Assembly (NCBI GenBank): GCA_016285575.1
Contig: JAEEQX010000005.1
Coordinates: forward strand, 1-57,777
Direction of reading: 5' to 3'
DNA from: Lachnospiraceae bacterium
GTDB taxonomy: Bacteria > Bacillota > Clostridia > Lachnospirales > Lachnospiraceae
DNA: 57,777 nucleotides
Shown here: positions 41,042 through 53,222 of the stretch, one piece after another
Layout of the letters: the number at the start of each line of letters is the position of its first letter
Numbering within the stretch: position 1 is the stretch's first letter
Made by a program: the position numbers and the translations under genes
Notes under the pieces: generated by a model
What the model saw: the letters and a program-made list of their open reading frames with translations, nothing else
What the model was told of the DNA's origin: nothing
The model's database searches: none

Positions 41042-41806
41042 TTAATTAAGTCTTTGCATATCAAAGAAGTACTTAATCTTAGCAAGCAAACAAGGCTTAT
41101 CGATAGTCTTAAGGATATAATCAACCGGCTTAAGATTGATAACACTCATAAGACTCTCTTTATCAGACTTACCTGTTAAGAACATAACGGGAATCTTACT
41201 TGTCTCAGCATCTTCCTTGAGCATCTCAAAGAACTGTGGGCCTGAAAGCGCCGGCATCTTATAGTCAAGTAAAATAAGATCGGGCTTATTCTTAGCTAGC
41301 CATTTGATAGCCTGAAGACCGCTTGAAGCCATACCTATACGATAATCATCCTTCAACCAGTCATATACCATTCGCATATAGAAAATATCATCATCTACAA
41401 TAAGAATAGTCTTCTTAACTGTAGGCTGGATATCTTCAAAAGCACATAACTCAACACTTCTTAAAAAGAGGTTCATATCAAGAGGTCTGTCGAGCCATTT
41501 GAATACCAATGATTCTGTGATAACCTTTTCAACCTTGGTGAATTCAATAGGTTCTCCAACGATGATGATACGCTTGTTTAACTCCGAGAGCATATCCTTG
41601 ATATATACAAGAGTTTCTGTATCCATCTCATACTGAAGATACAATACGAAAACATCTGCAACATTTTTAATCATTGAGATTGCATCTATTGTATCTAAAC
41701 TGAATGTATATTCGAATCCAATCTCTTCAAGTTTGGTCTCAATTCCCTTTACAATGAAACCTTCGCTGGGGCTAATTATTGCTACTGTTTTAAAATTTTT
41801 AACCAT
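41042..41806 (-). CDS. Double-receiver response regulator without output domain
   Basis: 254 aa. Residues 1-125 have a receiver-like alternation of strands and helices but lack the acidic pocket (IISPSEGF where VVDDxx is expected). Residues about 130-250 are a complete receiver: VDDD, acceptor Asp in LLDYKMP, Thr in FLTGKSD, Lys in ILKTIDKP. There is no DNA-binding or enzymatic output, so it may act by protein contact or as a phosphate sink. It follows the PAS hybrid kinase by 21 nt and is its likely partner. Confidence 0.88.
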   Translation of the reverse strand: MVKNFKTVAIISPSEGFIVKGIETKLEEIGFEYTFSLDTIDAISMIKNVADVFVLYLQYEMDTETLVYIKDMLSELNKRIIIVGEPIEFTKVEKVITESLVFKWLDRPLDMNLFLRSVELCAFEDIQPTVKKTILIVDDDIFYMRMVYDWLKDDYRIGMASSGLQAIKWLAKNKPDLILLDYKMPALSGPQFFEMLKEDAETSKIPVMFLTGKSDKESLMSVINLKPVDYILKTIDKPCLLAKIKYFFDMQRLN

Positions 41807-41827
41807 GTCCTTTAACCTCGGGCTGTA

Positions 41828-44200
41828 TTAATTATCTGATAATTTTGTATTGATAATCTCGACTATAGAATCCCAATCGAGTTCAAGCAATCTCTCATTA
41901 ATCTCTTCTACACACTTAGCATTTTCTTCAGCTATTGAATAGTTCTCAAATACCTTAAGGAGCATATCCACAACACCGTAATCCATCTCATCCGATGCTG
42001 TACGTATGGACTTAAGTGTCTCCTTAAACAATCCTTGAGGCATCTCAGGAAGAGTAACGCTCTGATTATCAAATCCCTTGAGGAATTCATCGAGCTTATC
42101 ACACATTTCAGTAAGCTCAGCATAATGTGCCTTAATGAAGTCTATATCATTCTCATTACCTGCCGTCTCCATATTGAGTGCAAGTTCTGACAATACGCCT
42201 TCACCAATGATTCTGGTAGAACTCTTAAGAGCATGTACCTTTACAGTAAAGTCTTCCCAGTTTCCACCCTCATAGTAATCATTGATTTCCTTCATGTTCT
42301 TACGGAAGGACTCATGGAATAACTTAAGTACTGAAAGATAACCATCCTCCGAACCACAGTTCTTGATACCATCTTCAATATTGAAAGGAGGATTATGAGT
42401 AATCCAATCAGGAAGTACTCTTCCTTCTTCGGTAACTGCAAAATCATCATTAACGATATCTTCTGCATATACTTCTTCAGGATTTTTATCCTTGTAGATG
42501 TATTTATATACCATCTTCTCAAGAACTTCACCATTGATAGGCTTGGAAAGATAATCATCGAACCCTGCTTCAAGATATTTTTCTCTCGAACCTGATATTG
42601 CATTAGCTGTTAAAGCAATATGAACGGACTTGGAGTAATTATCAAGTTCCTTCATTCTTTCAAGAGTCTCAATACCATCCATAACAGGCATCATATGATC
42701 GACGAAGATGATATCGTAGTCTTTTTCTTTTACCATTTCCAATGCAGAAAATCCGGAATCAGCTGTATCAATCTGAACCTTGGTCTGCTTAAGGAGATTC
42801 TTGAATACCGAGAGGTTAATCTCTGTATCATCGATAGCAAGAATCTTGGCATTGGGTGCAACAAAGGATACCTTGTATTCTTCATTGGCTGTTTTGCTCT
42901 TATTGAATCTCTCGGTGTAATCACCCATGGGCTCCCAGTCAGTAACTTTTTGCTCGATACTGATCATGAAATCGGAACCCTTGCCGTATACGGAGTCGAT
43001 GGAAAGAGAACCATTCATTAACTCGAGAAGATGCTTGGTAATATTCATACCAAGTCCTGTACCCTCGATGTTACGGTTTCTTTCTTCTTCAATACGTGTA
43101 AAAGGAGAATAAATCTTTTCGATATCTTCTTCCTTCATACCGATACCCGTATCGGAACAATGAACTTCAAGATATATATTATCTGAATCCTTGTATCTAT
43201 AACCTACTTCAAGCTTTACGCTACCACGTTCCGTGTACTTTACTGAGTTAACGAGGATATTAAGAATACACTGCTTGATACGTATCTCATCACCAAATAA
43301 GAGATGAGGCATCTGCTCGTCAACCTTTAAGATAAACTCAAGATTCTTTTTCTTAACTCTATCATTAATCATATTAACGATATCATTAAGCATGGATACG
43401 AGTTCGTACTGTATGGGGATAATCTCCATCTTGCCTTCTGACACCTTGGAGAAATCAAGTATCTCGTTAACGAGTGCCATAAGTGTACGTCCTGCGGATC
43501 TGATATCCTGAGCATACGCAATTATCTGATCTTCCTTACTCTCTCTAAGAATCATCTCATCCATACCAAGAATGGCATTGATAGGAGTACGAATCTCATG
43601 AGACATGTTGGCAAGGAATGAACTCTTGGCTTCATCGGCAGCTTCAGCTTTTTCCTTGGCCTCTATGAATTCAGTCATATCCAAAAAAGCTATGTTAAGA
43701 CCAACTATTCTATCCTCATCCAACATCAGACTGATATTAATCTGATAATCAGTATGCGTATCTTCATCATCATTTCTTAGGATATATGAAGTACTGGTTC
43801 TATCATCTAATACTTCAAGGCACTGGTTGTAAAATGAATCCAGATTCTTGCCTGATAAAATAGCGCTGGCAGCCAATTTCATATCAGTATCCATAGAAAT
43901 ATCTACTTTTTTACTCGAGGCATATGCTCTTAATTTTTCAGAACACATTACAACTTTAAGATTACTATCCGTAATAATCAAATAATACGGAGAAGTTCTT
44001 AAAAACTGCTTATTAAAGAACGCCTGCAAATAATTCTCTTTTTGAATAAATGCCTGCGTACGCATAGCCTGATCATTGGCACGTCTAAGAAGTTCATTAT
44101 CCCTGACGTAATGTCTGGCTTCTCTTTTTAATTTTTTGTTTTCAAGCCTTAACTCGGATAATTCTTCGAGCGCTTCAGCATATTGTTGTTCATCTATCAT
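41828..44200 (-). CDS. Soluble PAS hybrid histidine kinase with HPt
   Basis: 790 aa, no membrane segment. An N-terminal coiled coil (1-60) leads into a PAS-like domain (about 68-185), HisKA ([14 protein letters not shown]), HATPase ([11 protein letters not shown]), receiver (IDDTEIN, acceptor Asp in FVDHMMP, LSKPI) and HPt (HALKSSTR). All transfer residues are present. It lies 45 nt after the FIST gene and before the double-receiver gene, a three-gene sensor-relay-receiver unit. As a cytosolic kinase it probably takes its signal from PAS or from the FIST protein. Confidence 0.93.
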
Positions 44201-44245
44201 AAGAATTTGCCCCGTACACTTTATAGTCTCTAAATACTATATCTT

Positions 44246-45448
44246 TTAGAAAGCCACAATCGTGAAAGTAAAGTTATGAAAACTGTTATAATACTTGTCG
44301 GAATTGAGTCCCTTGACCGGGCAAAACTCTCCGAACGCATATATTCCCATAAGTTCAAGATTTTTCGGAAGGTTATCAAGACACATCTGTCCTTCGGCTT
44401 CAACATCGGATGCAAGTGCAAGGAATCTGGCAGCACATGTTGTACATAAAAGTGTCGAGTATTCATAATCCGGATCATCAAGCATATCGTTAATTGCCGC
44501 ACATGCCTTTTCTACCGAATTCTTAACATCATCTTTATTGATAATTCCTATACCAAGTGTTGAACCCTCAGGCATACCACCAAGGAATACACCACTTCCA
44601 TCCATATGATTAAGCGAGGATATATTACGTGCTGTTTCAATAACATCACCATCTTCCATGGGGATTGATAACAAGAAAGGAGATAACAGATAATCAGCAA
44701 CAACATCTTCCTTTTCGTTACCTATCTGCTCCTTGTTCATAACATTAAGAAGTGTATCATTGCCAAGTTTAAATACATGATTTGCTTTTGATTCGGTAAT
44801 GACATATGAGAACAAAGCTCTGTTGCTAACAGAGTTTCTACTTACAAACTTTGGTTTAATATTTCCCGTGATTAAAACCATATTCAACGCATCTGCAACA
44901 CAGGAATCGTTGCAAAATACTCTGTTACTTGAAAAGTTAAAGTTGTCCGATGCCAAACCGCCGAATATGGGCGTGTTGTTGCTGAGTTTGTTAAGTACCT
45001 CAACGTATCCGTCTCCGCTGACGTCATCAATGCTCTTGACCATAATGCCATATGAGATAATCATCTTAACTTCGCCGTCAAGTTTCTTTTCAGTCTCTCT
45101 GTAAACACGTTCTATCTCTTCAGCATAATTATCCTTGGTAAGAGTATTGGTAATACCTGTAGCAAATTGACAATCATCGGCGCTTAAAAGAAGTATTGAT
45201 ATTCCGTCAGGAACATACCCTGCCACATTGGTAATCATACTCATGGCAGTACATCCTAAAATATCAAAATCCCATTTTTCTCTGAGTCTTTCGATGAGTT
45301 CGTCATATTCGAAATCCTCAACATCTTCCCCGTATACTAGCGCAATGCTGTTTTTCTTGAATTCGAATTCCTCTGCTTGAGTCATCAGCTCCTCAACTGC
45401 CAACTCAAGATCATCCATCTCCGGAGTATATAATACTTTAGATTTCAT
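44246..45448 (-). CDS. FIST-domain sensor protein
   Basis: 400 aa, soluble. FIST_N (about 30-215; SIALVYGEDV, ILGCTAMSM, TPIFGGLASDN) and FIST_C (about 230-385, ending with ELMGIYAFGEFCPV). FIST proteins are predicted to bind small ligands such as amino acids and to pass the signal to kinases or c-di-GMP enzymes. Several Cys lie in CTTCAARFLA and EFCP. AAAGGAG precedes the ATG, and a good promoter lies directly upstream. The next gene is a soluble hybrid kinase. Confidence 0.92.
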   Translation of the reverse strand: MKSKVLYTPEMDDLELAVEELMTQAEEFEFKKNSIALVYGEDVEDFEYDELIERLREKWDFDILGCTAMSMITNVAGYVPDGISILLLSADDCQFATGITNTLTKDNYAEEIERVYRETEKKLDGEVKMIISYGIMVKSIDDVSGDGYVEVLNKLSNNTPIFGGLASDNFNFSSNRVFCNDSCVADALNMVLITGNIKPKFVSRNSVSNRALFSYVITESKANHVFKLGNDTLLNVMNKEQIGNEKEDVVADYLLSPFLLSIPMEDGDVIETARNISSLNHMDGSGVFLGGMPEGSTLGIGIINKDDVKNSVEKACAAINDMLDDPDYEYSTLLCTTCAARFLALASDVEAEGQMCLDNLPKNLELMGIYAFGEFCPVKGLNSDKYYNSFHNFTFTIVAF

Positions 45449-45528: not shown

Positions 45529-48201
45529 CTATAATTCTTTAAGCAATAATCCGAATGTTCCGGGTCCGCAGTTAACTGCAATTGCAGGTGATGCTTTCTG
45601 GAAAATTATCTCCTCAAATTTGGCTTTTTCAGCGATTCTGTCTCTAATCCATTCCATCTCTTTATTGGTAAGTCCAACATAGGTAACAAAGAGTATGCTC
45701 TTATCTATGCCACCCTCATGTCTGAGAGTAGAATTAATGTATTTTTTCCAAGCATATCTTCTCGAGCCAAAAATCATCGAATCAAGACCGATTTTACCGT
45801 TTTTGAGCATTATTACGGGATGACCCGATAATGACTTAACTATATTGGCAAGCTTGGGGTTAATCTGCTTGGATCGAGCCAGATAGTCGATATCATCGAG
45901 GACGAAGCTAGTCCTAACCTTATCCTTAAGATGCTTCATCTCTTCCACAATCTCTTCGGCACTCTTTCCCCTGGCTGCCATCTTGGCTGCTTCGATTGCC
46001 ATAATTCCCTGACCGCTTGAAAGATGACCCGAATCAATAACCGTAACATTATCAAATGCCTTGGATGCCTCCATAGCTGAAGGACAACCACTATGAGCCA
46101 CCTTGGAAGAAATCGATATATGAACTACGTTATTGGCCTTCTTTAATTCCTCTGCAAAGAACTCTTCATGTTCCTTGGTATCCGGAGATCTCGTCTCTAT
46201 ATGATGTTCGGGCTTTCTCATATATGAGATTACGCCCTGAGTATCTATTTCTGTACCGTCTCTGAATAAGCCCTCGTCTGTTTTAACCATATGAGGTATA
46301 ACAGAAATCTCATATCTTTCAGCAAGTTCATTGGGTATATCCGCAACACTCTCTGAAGTAACGCTAACAGTCTTTTTCTTCTTGTTATCCTGCATCCAGG
46401 ATATGGTCTCTTCGAATATCTCTTCTGCACTACCAAGTACATTGACCATATCGGAAGGAAGGAATCTGTATACGGTATTTTCAAGTTCCTCGCCACTGAC
46501 AGGCTTGGCAAGATATGCATCAAATCCTTCTTTTTCAAAGAGGATTTTATGTTCCTCATCAGCATTGGCAGTAAGGATTACAACATGAGTATTTCTATTC
46601 ATGCCTCCCACCTGGGATCTGATTGCCTTAAAGCACTCTATACCATCCATCTCCGGCATTAAGTGATCCATAAAGATAAGATTGTATTCCTTGGCAAGAG
46701 TCTTTTCGAGTGCCTCCGCGCCGCTTGATGCAGTATCAATCTGCACCTTGGTATCTCTTAATAACTTGCTCTCAACCATGATGTTGGAAGCATTGTCATC
46801 AACCAACAATACCTTCGCATTCGGTGCCTCAAATCTAGACTTGTAATGTGAGAGTTTTTCGACATTCTTGGAATGCTCAAGATTAACTTCGCCGATATTT
46901 TTATCACTGATTACTTTCTGAGGTATCTCAACGATAAAAGTGGTACCGACCGTATATATACTGTTAACGGTTACTTTTCCGCCCATCAACTCGGTAAATC
47001 TCTTGACTATCGAAAGACCTAAACCTGTACCCTCTATGTGACGGGTCTGAGTCTCATCAACACGCTTAAATGCTGTGAAAAGATACGGAATGTCTTCTTT
47101 TTTGATACCTATACCCGTATCTTCAATCGTGTATATCATGTTGACCTTGTTATCATCTAACTTTTCACACTGAACGGAAAGTTTTACAGAGCCTTCCTTG
47201 GTGTACTTGATGGCATTGTTAAGTACGTTAATAAGGATCTGCTTGATACGAACTTCATCACCGGATAACTCATCAGGAATATCGTGTGCAACGGTTATGT
47301 TAAAATCGAGATTTTTTTCTTTTGCTCTTATCCATAGCATACCGACTATATCGGAAAGCATATCTCCGGGATGATATGATTCATCCGCTATAACCATCTG
47401 ACCGGACTCAAGCTTGGACATATCAAGGATGTCGTTAATAAGGCTTAGTAGCATCTTACCTGCAGCCCTGATATTAGCCGCATCTTCCGCAACTTCATCG
47501 GAAATATTCTCTCTTAAGATCATCTCGTTAAGACCGATGATTGTGTTAATCGGTGTACGAATCTCATGGCTCATACTTGAGAAGAACTGATTCTGTGAAT
47601 CACTTAAGGCCTTAATCTCCTGCATCTGACTGTGTGACTGGATACGCTGTCTCTGGTAAAGATTAACCATGTAGTCAACAATGATGCCTATCGCAATGCC
47701 GATTAATACTATGGAAACTAATGAATACACATGCTCAACATTGTCCGGATACGATTGAATTCTCTCCGGATATTTGAACGATACGTAATAGCACACTACC
47801 ATTTCTATCACGATTAATCCATAAAACACCTTCTTTATAGGTCCTATCATTAATACGCTGACGTAAAGTATCGCATACAGAATCCAGATTGGTGCATCAC
47901 CACACACACCTCCTCCTGTAAAAAAGCTAAAAGGAATATAGAAAAATATAATCAGGAATGCTGTAACACCCGTACCAAAATTAGTCTTTTTCAACTTGGC
48001 TGTAATAATGGTTATCGCTACATACAACAATAGTGCTCCTGCCAGAATAAGCTTGTAGTAATTGGAATCATAGGTAATCACAGTCTCTATGAGTGCTACC
48101 GATAATGATATAACCGTAATTACACTGCAGATGTTGTATAGCTTACGCCTAATGGAAAAGTCCCTGGTTTTGAATTTGTCCAAATCACTGTTTCTGCCCA
48201 T
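45529..48201 (-). CDS. Hybrid histidine kinase fused to a DegV domain
   Basis: 890 aa from ATG 48201, chosen for GAGGAG 8 nt upstream over a TTG at 48228. Six membrane segments (about 23-180), HisKA (His212), HATPase (about 310-430, DTGIGI, GTGLGLSIV), receiver (about 462-582, acceptor Asp512, LAKPV). Then, in place of the HPt found in its relatives here, a full-length DegV/EDD domain (about 610-890): an SESVADIP-type first loop, HISISSKVAHSG, VIDSGHLSSGQG and a final NCGPGTFG. DegV (FakB) proteins bind one fatty acid. The fusion suggests that lipid binding tunes the kinase or that the relay controls a lipid-bound state. It follows the upstream kinase stop by 1 nt. Confidence 0.9.
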   Translation of the reverse strand: MGRNSDLDKFKTRDFSIRRKLYNICSVITVISLSVALIETVITYDSNYYKLILAGALLLYVAITIITAKLKKTNFGTGVTAFLIIFFYIPFSFFTGGGVCGDAPIWILYAILYVSVLMIGPIKKVFYGLIVIEMVVCYYVSFKYPERIQSYPDNVEHVYSLVSIVLIGIAIGIIVDYMVNLYQRQRIQSHSQMQEIKALSDSQNQFFSSMSHEIRTPINTIIGLNEMILRENISDEVAEDAANIRAAGKMLLSLINDILDMSKLESGQMVIADESYHPGDMLSDIVGMLWIRAKEKNLDFNITVAHDIPDELSGDEVRIKQILINVLNNAIKYTKEGSVKLSVQCEKLDDNKVNMIYTIEDTGIGIKKEDIPYLFTAFKRVDETQTRHIEGTGLGLSIVKRFTELMGGKVTVNSIYTVGTTFIVEIPQKVISDKNIGEVNLEHSKNVEKLSHYKSRFEAPNAKVLLVDDNASNIMVESKLLRDTKVQIDTASSGAEALEKTLAKEYNLIFMDHLMPEMDGIECFKAIRSQVGGMNRNTHVVILTANADEEHKILFEKEGFDAYLAKPVSGEELENTVYRFLPSDMVNVLGSAEEIFEETISWMQDNKKKKTVSVTSESVADIPNELAERYEISVIPHMVKTDEGLFRDGTEIDTQGVISYMRKPEHHIETRSPDTKEHEEFFAEELKKANNVVHISISSKVAHSGCPSAMEASKAFDNVTVIDSGHLSSGQGIMAIEAAKMAARGKSAEEIVEEMKHLKDKVRTSFVLDDIDYLARSKQINPKLANIVKSLSGHPVIMLKNGKIGLDSMIFGSRRYAWKKYINSTLRHEGGIDKSILFVTYVGLTNKEMEWIRDRIAEKAKFEEIIFQKASPAIAVNCGPGTFGLLLKEL

Positions 48202-48202
48202 A

Positions 48203-50836
48203 TTAATTCTCCTCATTAATTGGTGCAAATTCTAATATTTCATCATCTTGACCGACTGGGTCAAATTCTAAGATATCTCCGTTTTTATCGGGCTTTTCGC
48301 ATCTTTCGCCCGTAATTTCTTCGCCTAATAAAGCAGCTATGGTTTTTACGAATCTTGCGTAGTCATCCATGCAGGATTGATGGTTTTTAACTATAAAATC
48401 TCTGTCCTTATTCTTGGCTGCCACTTCGAGTTCCTTGGCCTTATCTGATAGTTTCATTTCTCCTATCATCTTGGAAGTACTCTTAAGCGCATGGACATAT
48501 ATCTCATAATTTTCCAGATCGTTTTCTTCGTAGGCTTTTTTGATAATCTCCATCTTTTCGAAGGACTCATCAAAGTATTGTTTAATGAGTGATAAATAGA
48601 ATTCCTCATCATCCTGGCAATAATTTAATCCCTTATCCACGTCAACGCCATATTCTCTAAGAAGTGCAAATCTGTCGACAAGTTCCTTGGTAGACTCTTT
48701 TACATCTTCTACAAAAGCTCTTATATTGCTGAATGCATTATTTTTTCCATCAACAGTAACATTATTGGTAAGCTCATCATCGTATTCATAGGATATGAAT
48801 CTCTTGGGAAGAACGCTCTTTAAGACTCTCTCAAGCTCTTCTTTATCAACGGGCTTACTTACAAAGCCATCAAATCCTTCGGATAAAAACATCTGCTTAG
48901 CCGAACTCATCGCATTGGCTGTAAGTGCTACTATAGGAATCACAATATCATTCTTTTGATGAAGCGATCTGATACGCTTCATAGCCTCAACACCATCCAT
49001 ACCGCTCATCATGTGATCCATAAAGATAATGTCATAATCATTGGCTTCACACATCTCGATGGACTCAAATCCGGATTCTGCAGTTGATACAACCATGCCA
49101 TATCTCTTAAAGAACGATTTTGCAACAGTAAGGTTCATGGGTTCATCATCAACTACCAGTGCTCTCACGTTATGGCACATGAGTCTTCCTGTTCCCCTGC
49201 TTCTATCAGATGCATCCATATTGAGGTAATTAACAACAGGGAAGCAATAGAACGGCTTTTCAAGTTTTTTGCATCTTGAACCGGGTGCAAGCTTGAAGCC
49301 TCTGTTACATACGACAACTATAACTACCTTCTCTGCTGCCTTCTCAAGCAACTCTGTAGCAGATTTGTATTCTTCCTGTGCAACAAAGAGATGTGTTAAG
49401 TTAACTGATTCAAGCATACGCTCGAGGTTCTCTGCATTCTCAACTCTATGCATCTGAACGCCAAGTCCGTTAACTATATTTCTAACCATTACGTTGTAGT
49501 ACTCTCTTACAACAGGATGCTCGTATTTATCAAAGTGTAAGAAACCACCGATACACTTCTTATCCTTTTCATTAACGCTCATGCAGTAGGATTCATCGAT
49601 AACCTTTTGAGGGATGGAGACGTGAACTTTGGTGCCTGAACCTTCCTTGGAATCTATGGTTAAGAATCCACCAAGAACTGATACAAATCCGGATACGATG
49701 CCAAGTCCAAGTCCCAATCCGCCACCGATTCTTGAACGACCTGAATCGCCCTGATAGAACTTTTCAAAAGCTCTCTCCATCTCTTCATTGGTCATGCCTT
49801 TTCCTGTATCAATAACATCGATACTAAGGTTAACGCCGTATTCTTCTTTAACAGTGGTAATACGTACATATACGCAGCCTTCAAGAGTGAACTTAAGGCC
49901 ATTGATGATTAAAAGCTTAATAATCTTTTTAAGCTTGGTAACATCCGTATTCATGATGAGTGGAATTGTAGGATCAATATCTATAATAAGTTCCACTGAA
50001 TCGGACTTAAATGTATTAATCTCAGAAACGATATCATGAATTACTGATGATAAAATGTAATCCTCATCATTTCTAACGAGCTTATCTCTGTCAATCTCGG
50101 AGTAATCGAGGATATCGCTAACCTGATCGGCAACTCGCTTGCCGGCTTCTTTTATGGATGCGATATCTTTTTTAATCTCATCGTTTTCTTCTTTTTCATA
50201 ACATACGCCTGAGAGACCAACTATGGCATTAACAGGAGTTCTAAGCTCATGAGATACGTTGGCCAAAAAGTCATTGAGTCGCTCTGTAGCATCGGTTAAT
50301 TCTTCGATTTCATCATCGGATTTTTCGAGAACCAGTCCCCACTTATTGATAATGGTACGGCACAACTGACCAATCATGATAATCATGATAAAGTGCATTA
50401 TGGTACGGCTTATTACAAGTGAATCAAAAGTCTCTTCGGTAAGAATCATTACTGTAAGCGCATATGCCATCGTAATGAAGTACGTAATCTGACACATTGT
50501 GATAAAAGCCTTAACGGAAGTAATCGTATAGATTGTCATTATCGCCGCCATAACAATCGCGAGATCAAAAGTACTCGTCGGATGTATGCCGTAAAAGAAA
50601 AACGAGCACATCATGAATATGGAATAAAGCCACATTCTCTGATATTTGCTCGCAATATTACCTATATGCAATACCCAGCTTAATACTGTAGAAAACAGTA
50701 TCAAGACAAGTACCCATTTTTCCCAGCCCATTAAGAGCGATTCCAAAATAAGAATCACACCCATAATGGTATAACTTATAAGGACTATCAAATGAGAAGT
50801 TTCAAAAAGCTCATTCTTTTTTGTGCTTCGATTCAT
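48203..50836 (-). CDS. Membrane hybrid histidine kinase with pseudo-receiver and HPt
   Basis: 877 aa. Five or six membrane segments (about 12-165), HisKA (VSHELRTPVNAIVG), HATPase (GGGLGLGLGIVSG), a receiver-like segment that lacks the acidic pocket (about 430-545), a complete receiver (VVDDEPMN, acceptor Asp in FMDHMMSGMDG, VSKPV) and a C-terminal HPt (HALKSTSK). AGGAG precedes ATG 50836, which lies inside the 3' end of the upstream gene (26-nt overlap), so its translation is coupled to the c-di-GMP enzyme. Confidence 0.93.
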   Translation of the reverse strand: MNRSTKKNELFETSHLIVLISYTIMGVILILESLLMGWEKWVLVLILFSTVLSWVLHIGNIASKYQRMWLYSIFMMCSFFFYGIHPTSTFDLAIVMAAIMTIYTITSVKAFITMCQITYFITMAYALTVMILTEETFDSLVISRTIMHFIMIIMIGQLCRTIINKWGLVLEKSDDEIEELTDATERLNDFLANVSHELRTPVNAIVGLSGVCYEKEENDEIKKDIASIKEAGKRVADQVSDILDYSEIDRDKLVRNDEDYILSSVIHDIVSEINTFKSDSVELIIDIDPTIPLIMNTDVTKLKKIIKLLIINGLKFTLEGCVYVRITTVKEEYGVNLSIDVIDTGKGMTNEEMERAFEKFYQGDSGRSRIGGGLGLGLGIVSGFVSVLGGFLTIDSKEGSGTKVHVSIPQKVIDESYCMSVNEKDKKCIGGFLHFDKYEHPVVREYYNVMVRNIVNGLGVQMHRVENAENLERMLESVNLTHLFVAQEEYKSATELLEKAAEKVVIVVVCNRGFKLAPGSRCKKLEKPFYCFPVVNYLNMDASDRSRGTGRLMCHNVRALVVDDEPMNLTVAKSFFKRYGMVVSTAESGFESIEMCEANDYDIIFMDHMMSGMDGVEAMKRIRSLHQKNDIVIPIVALTANAMSSAKQMFLSEGFDGFVSKPVDKEELERVLKSVLPKRFISYEYDDELTNNVTVDGKNNAFSNIRAFVEDVKESTKELVDRFALLREYGVDVDKGLNYCQDDEEFYLSLIKQYFDESFEKMEIIKKAYEENDLENYEIYVHALKSTSKMIGEMKLSDKAKELEVAAKNKDRDFIVKNHQSCMDDYARFVKTIAALLGEEITGERCEKPDKNGDILEFDPVGQDDEILEFAPINEEN

Positions 50837-53195
50837 CGTAACTCTCCTTCATCTTGTAGTCGATATCTTCTTCTATCATGTTAAGCATAATCTCTGCAAA
50901 TCTAGGATCAAACTGTGTACCGATACCTTCATTAATCTCGCTTACAATCTTGGACTGAGGCAATACATCCCTATAACTTCTGTAACTGGACATTGCATCA
51001 TATGCATCAGCTACTGCGATGATACGTGCAACCTGAGGAATCTTTTCTCCCTTGAGTTCCTGAGGATAACCTGTTCCATCATATCTCTCATGATGGCACT
51101 TGGCGCCAACAGCAAGCATGGGCATCTCAGAGATATTCTCCAAGATCTTTGCTCCCTTGGTAGGATGGGACTTAATCTCTTCGAACTCCTCATCAGTTAA
51201 TTTACCGGGCTTATTGATAACGGAATCTCTGATTCCGATTTTTCCTGCATCATGAAGCAAAGCGGCAATGTATATGTTACTTTGCATCTCATTGGAGAAG
51301 CCTGCTCTCTTGGCTATCTCTTTAGAATACTCGGCAACTCTGGATGAATGTCCGTTAGTATATGCATCCTTTGCATCTATTGCATCCGCTATTGACTGAA
51401 CGACATGTATGAAAAGATTTCTGTTTTCTTCTGTCTTTCTTTCAACTTCGATGCTTAAGTTCTTTTGAAGTCTTATAAGCTCGAGACTGCTCTTAACTCT
51501 GAGCGCCAATACTTCAGGAGTGAAGGGCTTCTTAATAAAGTCCATAGCGCCAAGCGATAATCCCCTGCTTTCTGCTTCTTCGCTCTCATCAGCAGTCAAG
51601 AATATAACGGGAGTAGTCGATGCATTACCGTCTTTTTGTCTTAAAATTTTTAATGTCTCGTATCCGTCAAGATCGGGCATCTTAACATCGAGTAAGATAA
51701 GATCGGGAACTTCGTTATCCACATAGTTAAGCAAAGCCTGTCCGGACTTAATGGCAGTTGTATGTATGCCCTTACTGCTTAAGATGGAACCCGCAAGTTT
51801 TAGATTGATAATGTCATCATCTACTACTACGACTTTATATTCTTCGTCACTGTGGTGCTTGTTACTGTCAGCAAAAATAACATCTTTTTCAACCGAGATG
51901 TTAATGTCTCTCTCATTCTTTTCTTTCCAGGTATTAACGATATGATCTATAACCTTATCCGTCGATGAGGGCTTAACATCTGTCAAAAATACGAAGAACT
52001 GGTTGAATGAACAACGCATTAAAATATCGGACTTACGAAGGGATTCGCTTACATGATTACCGAAGTTAACTGCCAGTTCATTTTCTTCTTCGCCATTTCT
52101 TCCCATCTCGAATTCAAGTGTAAAAAGAATCTTGCACGCGCTTCTCTGGTTACGAACAATGTCTCTCATAACGTAGCGATATACGTATGAAAAAGCATCC
52201 TTATCAAGCTGAAGTGCAACGTTTGGAATACTTCTCTCACCAAGTATTTCTGAGATTGCATATATATCAAGTCCCTTGGAGTCTTCTTCACTTAATGAAG
52301 AACTGCCGTATATTTCAACGCAATGCTTACCGTTTTTCTTGGCGTTATTAAGTGCTCTGTCAGCAAGATTAAGTAGTGATTTAAAATCATTGCCATGCTC
52401 AGGTACAGCAACTGCACCAAGTGTTACTCCGATGGGAATGCTCATATTCTCATCAAGTATCTTTTGAGCTTCTTTTGTTATTAAAGTATTAAGTTTATCA
52501 CCTATTTCTTTAAGTTCATTTGCATCTTTTAATCCCTTGGCAAAGATTACGAATTCATCTCCACCGACTCTGCCGAACGTACTCTCGGTAGGGAATAATA
52601 CTCTAATCATCTTGGCAAAAGAGATAAGCACTTCGTCGCCTTTTTCATGACCATATAAATCATTAACAGGCTTGAACGAATCAAGGTCTGCCATGATTAA
52701 CATGCCTGTCTGGCTCGAGCACTTTTCAACCATTGCCACATCTGTTGCGCCCTTACTTAAAAGACCTGTCAAGGAATCCTTTAATACTTCACTCTTAAGC
52801 GAACGAACAGTCGAAGTCTGAGATATGACGTTATCGATTCTTCTAACCAATACATCGGGATCAAAGGGCTTTCTAACGAAGTCTGCTACACCTACTTCGA
52901 AGCCTCTTTTTTCAGTCTCAAAATCTTCATCAGCGGTCACAAAAATGACCGGCGTGGAGGATACTCTAAGTTCTGCTTCTTTTTCACGAAGAATCCTAAG
53001 AGTCTCAAATCCGTCCATACCGGGCATCTTAACATCTAACAATATTAAATCGGGAAATCCGTTGCCGATGACATAGTCAACAAGCGACTGCCCTGATTTA
53101 AGAGCAGTCACTCTCATGTTGTTCTTGCTTAAAATATGTCCCGCAACGTTAAGATTGGCAGTATCGTCATCAACGACTATTACCCATTTTGCCAT
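50811..53195 (-). CDS. REC-GGDEF-REC-HD-GYP cyclic-di-GMP enzyme
   Basis: 794 aa from ATG 53195, with GAGG 5 nt upstream. Domain order: receiver (acceptor Asp54), GGDEF with intact GGDEF at 211-215 and no RxxD inhibitory site, a second degenerate GGDEF-like segment (about 315-440), a second receiver (acceptor Asp in LLDVKMPDLDG, about 503), and HD-GYP (HD at 648-649, HHERYDGTGYP around 701-711). It therefore has both c-di-GMP synthase and phosphodiesterase sites, each next to its own receiver. Phosphate from the neighbouring HPt kinases could choose between making and degrading the messenger (inference). It lies 27 nt after aspS with no terminator. Confidence 0.93.
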   Translation of the reverse strand: MAKWVIVVDDDTANLNVAGHILSKNNMRVTALKSGQSLVDYVIGNGFPDLILLDVKMPGMDGFETLRILREKEAELRVSSTPVIFVTADEDFETEKRGFEVGVADFVRKPFDPDVLVRRIDNVISQTSTVRSLKSEVLKDSLTGLLSKGATDVAMVEKCSSQTGMLIMADLDSFKPVNDLYGHEKGDEVLISFAKMIRVLFPTESTFGRVGGDEFVIFAKGLKDANELKEIGDKLNTLITKEAQKILDENMSIPIGVTLGAVAVPEHGNDFKSLLNLADRALNNAKKNGKHCVEIYGSSSLSEEDSKGLDIYAISEILGERSIPNVALQLDKDAFSYVYRYVMRDIVRNQRSACKILFTLEFEMGRNGEEENELAVNFGNHVSESLRKSDILMRCSFNQFFVFLTDVKPSSTDKVIDHIVNTWKEKNERDINISVEKDVIFADSNKHHSDEEYKVVVVDDDIINLKLAGSILSSKGIHTTAIKSGQALLNYVDNEVPDLILLDVKMPDLDGYETLKILRQKDGNASTTPVIFLTADESEEAESRGLSLGAMDFIKKPFTPEVLALRVKSSLELIRLQKNLSIEVERKTEENRNLFIHVVQSIADAIDAKDAYTNGHSSRVAEYSKEIAKRAGFSNEMQSNIYIAALLHDAGKIGIRDSVINKPGKLTDEEFEEIKSHPTKGAKILENISEMPMLAVGAKCHHERYDGTGYPQELKGEKIPQVARIIAVADAYDAMSSYRSYRDVLPQSKIVSEINEGIGTQFDPRFAEIMLNMIEEDIDYKMKESYDESKHKKE

Positions 53196-53222
53196 ATATA
53201 CCTCTAACCCCAAGTATAATAA

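Follow-up and report, generated by a model that had tools for sequence, protein, structure and literature searches.

The gene at 45529-48201 raises the question of what a DegV domain, which has the fold of the FakB proteins that serve fatty acid kinase, is doing at the end of a hybrid histidine kinase. The window, that is, the whole stretch of 57,777 nucleotides that was analysed, comes from a Lachnospiraceae bacterium, and the initial annotation proposed that the fused domain binds one fatty acid on behalf of fatty acid kinase, as FakB does, and links fatty acids to a phosphorelay beside a c-di-GMP enzyme. It knew of no experimental description of such a fusion, and our search agrees: no description of a DegV-kinase fusion was found in the literature searched (titles and abstract openings, with most subscription journals outside the coverage). 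We consider it probable, judging by sequence comparison, that the domain derives from FakB but is retired, that it is a likely lipid sensor, and that its kinase forms half of a two-kinase phosphorelay which shares one HPt and often lies near a c-di-GMP enzyme.

Architecture of the DegV kinase

The gene and its domains lie in the window as follows:

45529-48201, minus strand: DegV hybrid histidine kinase, 890 aa, with six transmembrane helices, HisKA, HATPase, REC and DegV
47653-48153, minus strand: six-helix membrane region, residues 17-183 (helix prediction and hydropathy)
47401-47595, minus strand: HisKA, with the phospho-acceptor His within SHEIRTP (Pfam and alignment)
46918-47262, minus strand: HATPase_c with N, G1 and G2 boxes (Pfam and alignment)
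46471-46812, minus strand: receiver (REC) domain, MDHLMPEMDG (Pfam)
45541-46368, minus strand: DegV domain, Asn type (Pfam, predicted model and residue alignment)

The ATG at 48201 gives the 890 residues, and an alternative in-frame TTG at 48228 would give 899. The stop of the preceding kinase gene ends 1 nt before this ATG, and a GAGGAG lies upstream of the ATG within the final codons of that gene. In the 890-aa numbering the Pfam matches span residues 203-267 (HisKA), 314-428 (HATPase_c), 464-577 (Response_reg) and 612-887 (DegV). The catalytic residues in HisKA, HATPase and REC (Pfam, aligned boxes) would class the protein as a hybrid histidine kinase. Transmembrane helices are predicted at about residues 17-43, 47-70, 73-95, 103-117, 121-143 and 153-183, the sixth being continuous with the HisKA helix in the structure model, and a hydropathy scan is compatible with six. 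The full-length model (pTM 0.41) served for the helices only and its domain arrangement was left aside. Pfam and helix prediction agree with the six membrane segments, HisKA, HATPase and receiver that had been read from the sequence.

The C-terminus is the full DegV/EDD domain that had been claimed. It matches PF02645 over the full length (E 3.4e-44; 151.7 bits, cut-off 27) and TIGR00762 with 163.9 bits (cut-off 99.7), and the predicted model of the window copy (pLDDT 95.2, pTM 0.92) has the DegV fold. Compared with solved fatty-acid-binding structures it gives a TM score of 0.87 to 2dt8, 0.84 to FakB1 of Staphylococcus aureus (5uto) and 0.82 to FakB2 (4x9x). The likeness to the two S. aureus proteins extends over the full domain, with TM 0.82-0.86 for most of the chains listed. 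Weak fold matches to dihydroxyacetone kinases and to DhaQ were also obtained. An artefact or chance match was rejected as the origin of the fusion on the grounds of the E value and the conservation of fused frames among relatives.

Distribution of the fusion

The DegV-domain query matched in 127 of 397 same-family genomes at 1e-30. Among the matches listed, the last of which are of stand-alone length, at least 70 of the 397 genomes (the window's own included) have one or more frames joining DegV to a kinase or receiver, which excludes absence of the fusion from relatives. Up to four fused copies occur in one genome. One fused relative is the MAG Lachnospiraceae bacterium RGIG619 (L036) from the duodenum of dairy cattle. 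In a class-wide sample of 391 genomes searched at 1e-45, kinase-length DegV frames (>700 aa) beyond the family came from a single genus of family f45 (three genomes), and their DegV domains are at best 60% identical to that of the window; a 404-aa DegV frame from this search (G686) lies outside the fetched set. No DegV frame longer than 580 aa was seen outside the family among the matches listed from a phylum-wide sample of 398 genomes at 1e-64. Divergent cases may escape these cut-offs, as well as the 1e-8 used below for a partner kinase.

Residues of the fused DegV domains

According to the accessible parts of two reports on FakB1 (PMC8892158, PMC9136124), Arg173 is needed for catalysis and Arg205 for FakA and membrane binding, the R173A variant being inactive and R205E having lowered affinity for FakA, while Thr62, Ser95, Ser171 and His270 form a network around the fatty acid carboxylate. 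We compared the corresponding sites in 99 fused copies and 39 stand-alones, 36 of them from the family and three from the source genome, whose contig-cut DegV (L005) was left out of the alignment. The family stand-alones derive from 40 fetched among the matches listed, four of which are of the Asn type. The FakB1 columns were set by a MAFFT alignment of DegV domains together with phmmer matches to PDB chains, not by residue-level alignment to FakB1 itself, and the 32-residue spacing between the two arginines agrees with their placement.

In this alignment Arg173, Arg205 and His270 are kept together in none of the 99 fused copies, as opposed to 38 of the 39 stand-alones. The His270 site is Asn in 89 of 97 fused copies. 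At the Arg205 site only two of the 99 have R or K, and 71 have a hydrophobic residue (F/I/M/V/L); at the Arg173 site Arg is found in 38. The Thr62 site is Ser or Thr in 80/99, and the Ser95 site Ala in 43/99. Stand-alones of other families from the class-wide loci have Arg173 and His270 in 22 of 22 and Arg205 in 20 of 22, and all three residues are kept in the nine phylum-wide stand-alones (9/9). Two stand-alones from small genomes of family f9 (L185, L186) look canonical and have Val or Ile for Arg205.

The window copy has Q779, F811 and N877 at the Arg173, Arg205 and His270 sites. Its acyl-pocket residues, which the initial annotation had expected in a DegV domain, are thus retained in part: Thr and Ser stand at the Thr62 and Ser95 sites and Asn at the His270 site, two of three in this part of the carboxylate network. 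By its residues at the two arginine sites and in the network, the window DegV would not be placed among the FakB proteins. The changes at Arg205, Arg173 and His270 mean that the FakB role of keeping one fatty acid at the disposal of fatty acid kinase does not transfer to the fused domains, which by sequence are not working FakB subunits. A 564-aa frame with Dak2 gives the source genome a FakA-like gene, and canonical DegVs are present too, so that other proteins are available for the FakB role.

Other positions are held in the fused copies. Ser266 (93/97), Thr36 (94/99), Phe41 (97/99) and Phe76 (96/99) are conserved there and far rarer in stand-alones, and Asn272 is also among the conserved positions; together with the Asn this makes the domain look constrained rather than decaying. 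A His at domain position 89 is found in 90/99 fused and 9/39 stand-alone copies. Both groups share Asp16, Gly207 and Gly274 (domain numbering). Since the carboxylate-site residues are partly altered, something other than a free fatty acid may be bound; a fatty acid is still plausible as the ligand, at a head-group site that has changed.

A probable signalling branch of DegV

In a quick maximum-likelihood analysis of 137 DegV domains (SH-aLRT only, signature columns included) the tree separates 47 canonical stand-alones (SH-aLRT 100) from 86 fused domains and four unfused ones of the Asn type. Each of these four unfused genes lies on the same strand right behind an HK-REC-HPt gene, and a fifth (L219) lies right behind an HK-REC gene, so that all five of the complete unfused, HPt-less Asn-type genes found directly follow a hybrid kinase gene. 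For 33 canonical stand-alones, flanks of up to 1.5 kb contained no kinase or HPt frame in any case and a receiver hit in two; this control is mostly from other families, as the family stand-alones had flanks of 0.4 kb only.

The DegV domain occurs after REC, between REC and HPt (a sister class ordered REC-DegV-HPt) or on an HPt alone, and it is N-terminal in L084 and L202. The suggestion that DegV takes the place of an HPt fits the C-terminal position in the window, but not the order of the sister class. The varied layouts, with the unfused genes behind kinases, suggest that the Asn-type DegVs, whether joined to a kinase or separate, form a branch of the family that works in signalling.

Several unusual arrangements were seen. 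L205:5890-7146 and L206:4740-6209 encode DegV-HPt proteins without a kinase (the HPt of L206 is below the Pfam cut-off), and both adjoin an HK2-type kinase on which no HPt was found. L194:6933-12621 and L195:7281-12933 have a REC-less HK-DegV protein followed by two genes, with no HK2; the two genes in L194 are GGDEF proteins by Pfam, and these loci are perhaps a simpler version of the system. L202:5811-10556 (the same as L103:111-4856) is a 1582-aa frame with N-terminal DegV, dCache, kinase, REC and HPt, and L049:9492-14881 has tandem DegV kinases behind one hybrid kinase with HPt.

Partner kinase and one HPt per pair

Upstream of the DegV kinase the window has:

48203-50836, minus strand: partner hybrid kinase HK2 (HisKA, HATPase, REC, HPt), the immediate upstream gene, carrying the pair's HPt
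48407-48589, minus strand: HPt of HK2, Pfam 750-810, with the His in HALKS (27.3 bits vs 24.6)
50811-53213, minus strand: REC-GGDEF-REC-HD-GYP protein, likely output (Pfam; the translation shows both the GGDEF and the HD-GYP motif)

The N-terminal region of HK2 is hydrophobic. The initial annotation had placed a c-di-GMP enzyme nearby, which Pfam confirms for the third gene, and an HPt on both adjacent hybrid kinases, which is also borne out, the downstream one (41828-44200) having a sub-threshold match of 21.6 against the Pfam cut-off of 24.6. On the same strand after the DegV kinase, 41042-45448 encodes a FIST-domain protein, this hybrid kinase with its weak HPt match and a REC regulator. 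Against the NosP model its FIST protein reaches 43 bits (cut-off 450) and is NosP-like at most. The FIST gene (44246-45448) was rejected as a component of the system, being near the fusion in the window only among 42 loci viewed.

In 82 of the 99 fused frames the directly upstream frame is a kinase or receiver and the pair totals exactly one HPt, which is on the upstream partner in 63, on the DegV kinase in 19 and on both in none. The other 17 lie outside this simple pattern and none was seen with an HPt on both. Ten of them are cut or unresolved (L040, L048, L062, L084, L093, L110, L204, L207, L208, L218), L048 having a receiver-only frame in between. In L056 an HPt-bearing frame lies 311 nt upstream behind an opposite-strand frame; in L049 the second copy duplicates the first in tandem and lies behind it, and another HPt kinase follows downstream; and in L196, L200 and L201 the HPt is on another gene of the cluster. 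L194 and L195, with neither REC nor partner kinase, do not fit the proposed relay.

The upstream kinase lacks an HPt in every case of an own-HPt fusion that could be judged. On the tree 16 of the 18 own-HPt fusions form one clade, with L063 and L103 apart. The placement needs three label changes, only one of which is required by well-supported branches. This puts the number of HPt moves at one to about three, and the pattern may rest on few independent events.

A query with the HK2 membrane region gave 25 hits in 150 genomes, 21 of them directly before a DegV kinase; two more are REC-less DegV kinases and two reach the contig start, and no hit was shown to lack a DegV kinase in these genomes at the 1e-8 cut-off. 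Near-constant pairing and a single HPt per pair together point to one circuit formed by the two hybrid kinases, the one HPt per pair being natural evidence for it. The 76 aligned DegV kinases have H, N, G1 and G2 boxes (one is without the first N-box Asn), and 70 of them match the receiver motif pattern. In HK2 the first N-box Asn is found in 15/70. That HK2 is a dead kinase was rejected, as it keeps the His in 62 of the 62 sequences with letters there and the second N-box Asn and the G1 Asp in 70/70 each.

For the 85 fused frames with an upstream kinase, the next gene up encodes GGDEF/HD-GYP in 24, a receiver only in 14 and another protein in 12; in 4 it is an opposite-strand frame and in 31 it is cut off. 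GGDEF/HD-GYP proteins are thus encoded in 24 of the 50 readable same-strand genes before the partner, making c-di-GMP turnover a common but not constant neighbour of the pair.

Discussion

Sequence and comparison give the architecture, the Asn-type branch, the loss of the FakB partner residues, the pairing with HK2 and the one HPt per pair. Although folded like FakB, the DegV domain seems to have dropped out of the pathway served by fatty acid kinase: its residues predict that docking to FakA and support for acyl-phosphate formation are lost, and it would act as a regulatory ligand domain. In the circuit that we propose, HK2 and the DegV kinase would both pass phosphate from His to Asp to the single HPt, and the HPt, fed by both, would relay it to the c-di-GMP protein's receiver. 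A long-chain ligand, acyl or other, bound in the DegV pocket would alter either the kinase activity or the REC-to-HPt step. Gating of the REC-to-HPt transfer is an attractive idea because DegV stands at the REC/HPt junction in most layouts (REC-DegV, REC-DegV-HPt, DegV-HPt without a kinase, and the separate gene after HK-REC-HPt), but not in the N-terminal-DegV and REC-less ones. The fuller form of this idea, which we regard as doubtful, is that a FakB-like DegV branch became lipid-gated phosphorelay regulators, in which lipid occupancy would open or block REC-to-HPt transfer in a dedicated kinase pair and so couple lipids of the membrane or the diet to c-di-GMP in Lachnospiraceae.

Other readings of the domain have to be weighed. 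It might be a working FakB tethered to the kinase, handing its fatty acid to FakA while the kinase reads the loading state. The shared fold, the relatives loaded with fatty acid, the FakA-like gene in the genome and the Arg173 kept in 38/99 copies speak for this, but with Arg or Lys present at the Arg205 site in just 2/99, and Gln, Phe and Asn at the three sites in the window, we find it very improbable, as the changes R173A and R205E inactivate FakB1 and weaken it for FakA (accessible text of PMC8892158 and PMC9136124). Still less credible is a DegV (EDD) domain that replaces the HPt as phosphotransfer domain. It would account for the C-terminal place where the neighbours carry an HPt and for the His enriched at domain position 89 (90/99 vs 9/39), but fusions with their own HPt retain DegV, and the presence of an HPt on one partner in 82/99 pairs led us to reject it.

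The domain could also have lost lipid binding and remain as a structural or docking module, for example joining the REC and HPt of both kinases. The hydrophobic Arg205 site in 71/99 copies suits a protein interface, and the positions of DegV after REC, between REC and HPt or on the HPt alone speak for this reading too. A spacer, however, needs none of the polar residues at or near the ligand-head site (Ser266, Asn272, Ser/Thr65, domain numbering) that are conserved in kind, and we consider this reading unlikely. A serious possibility, if short of an even chance, is that DegV senses something other than a free fatty acid: a neutral or phosphorylated lipid, a lysolipid, an isoprenoid, or the kind of small polar molecule bound by the related DhaK fold. 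The His to Asn and Thr to Ser changes at the head-group site point this way, the several paralogues per genome (up to four fused) suggest varied ligands, and the weak matches to dihydroxyacetone kinases and DhaQ fit as well, whereas structure titles name fatty acids as the bound ligands in many of the nearest solved relatives. This reading overlaps with the lipid-sensor relay that we prefer, in which the ligand is left open.

The kinase itself has known counterparts. It shares the HisKA-HATPase-REC core with hybrid kinases of the BarA/TorS type, but scores far below their cut-offs (305 vs 890, 282 vs 676.5) and differs in having a DegV domain, with the HPt on the second kinase gene. From FakB1 and FakB2 the window DegV differs by its fusion to a kinase, by not keeping Arg173, Arg205 and His270 together and by its branch, separate from that of the stand-alone DegVs. 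That a kinase-substrate subunit can be taken over for regulation has a precedent in DhaQ, a co-activator that arose as a paralogue of a dihydroxyacetone-kinase subunit. Its structure (2iu4) is a distant fold match to the window DegV model, and its ligand, partners and fold family are different. Two-component signalling by SaeRS of S. aureus is inhibited by fatty acids, and the likeness lies in a two-component output that depends on free fatty acid (accessible part of PMC5539427). The link to Fak is, however, indirect there, running through the fatty acid pool. SaeS is not known to have a DegV domain. Deletion of another DegV protein, FakB4, left the membrane phospholipid composition unchanged and raised lipid and vesicle amounts, according to the accessible part of the report (PMC10138225).

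The literature searched yielded no sensor kinase equipped with a fatty-acid-carrier domain. If the fused domain is lipid-sensing, it would give Lachnospiraceae a direct route from lipids to a phosphorelay, often one with c-di-GMP. In the DegV branch one sees how a carrier fold from metabolism may turn into a regulator.
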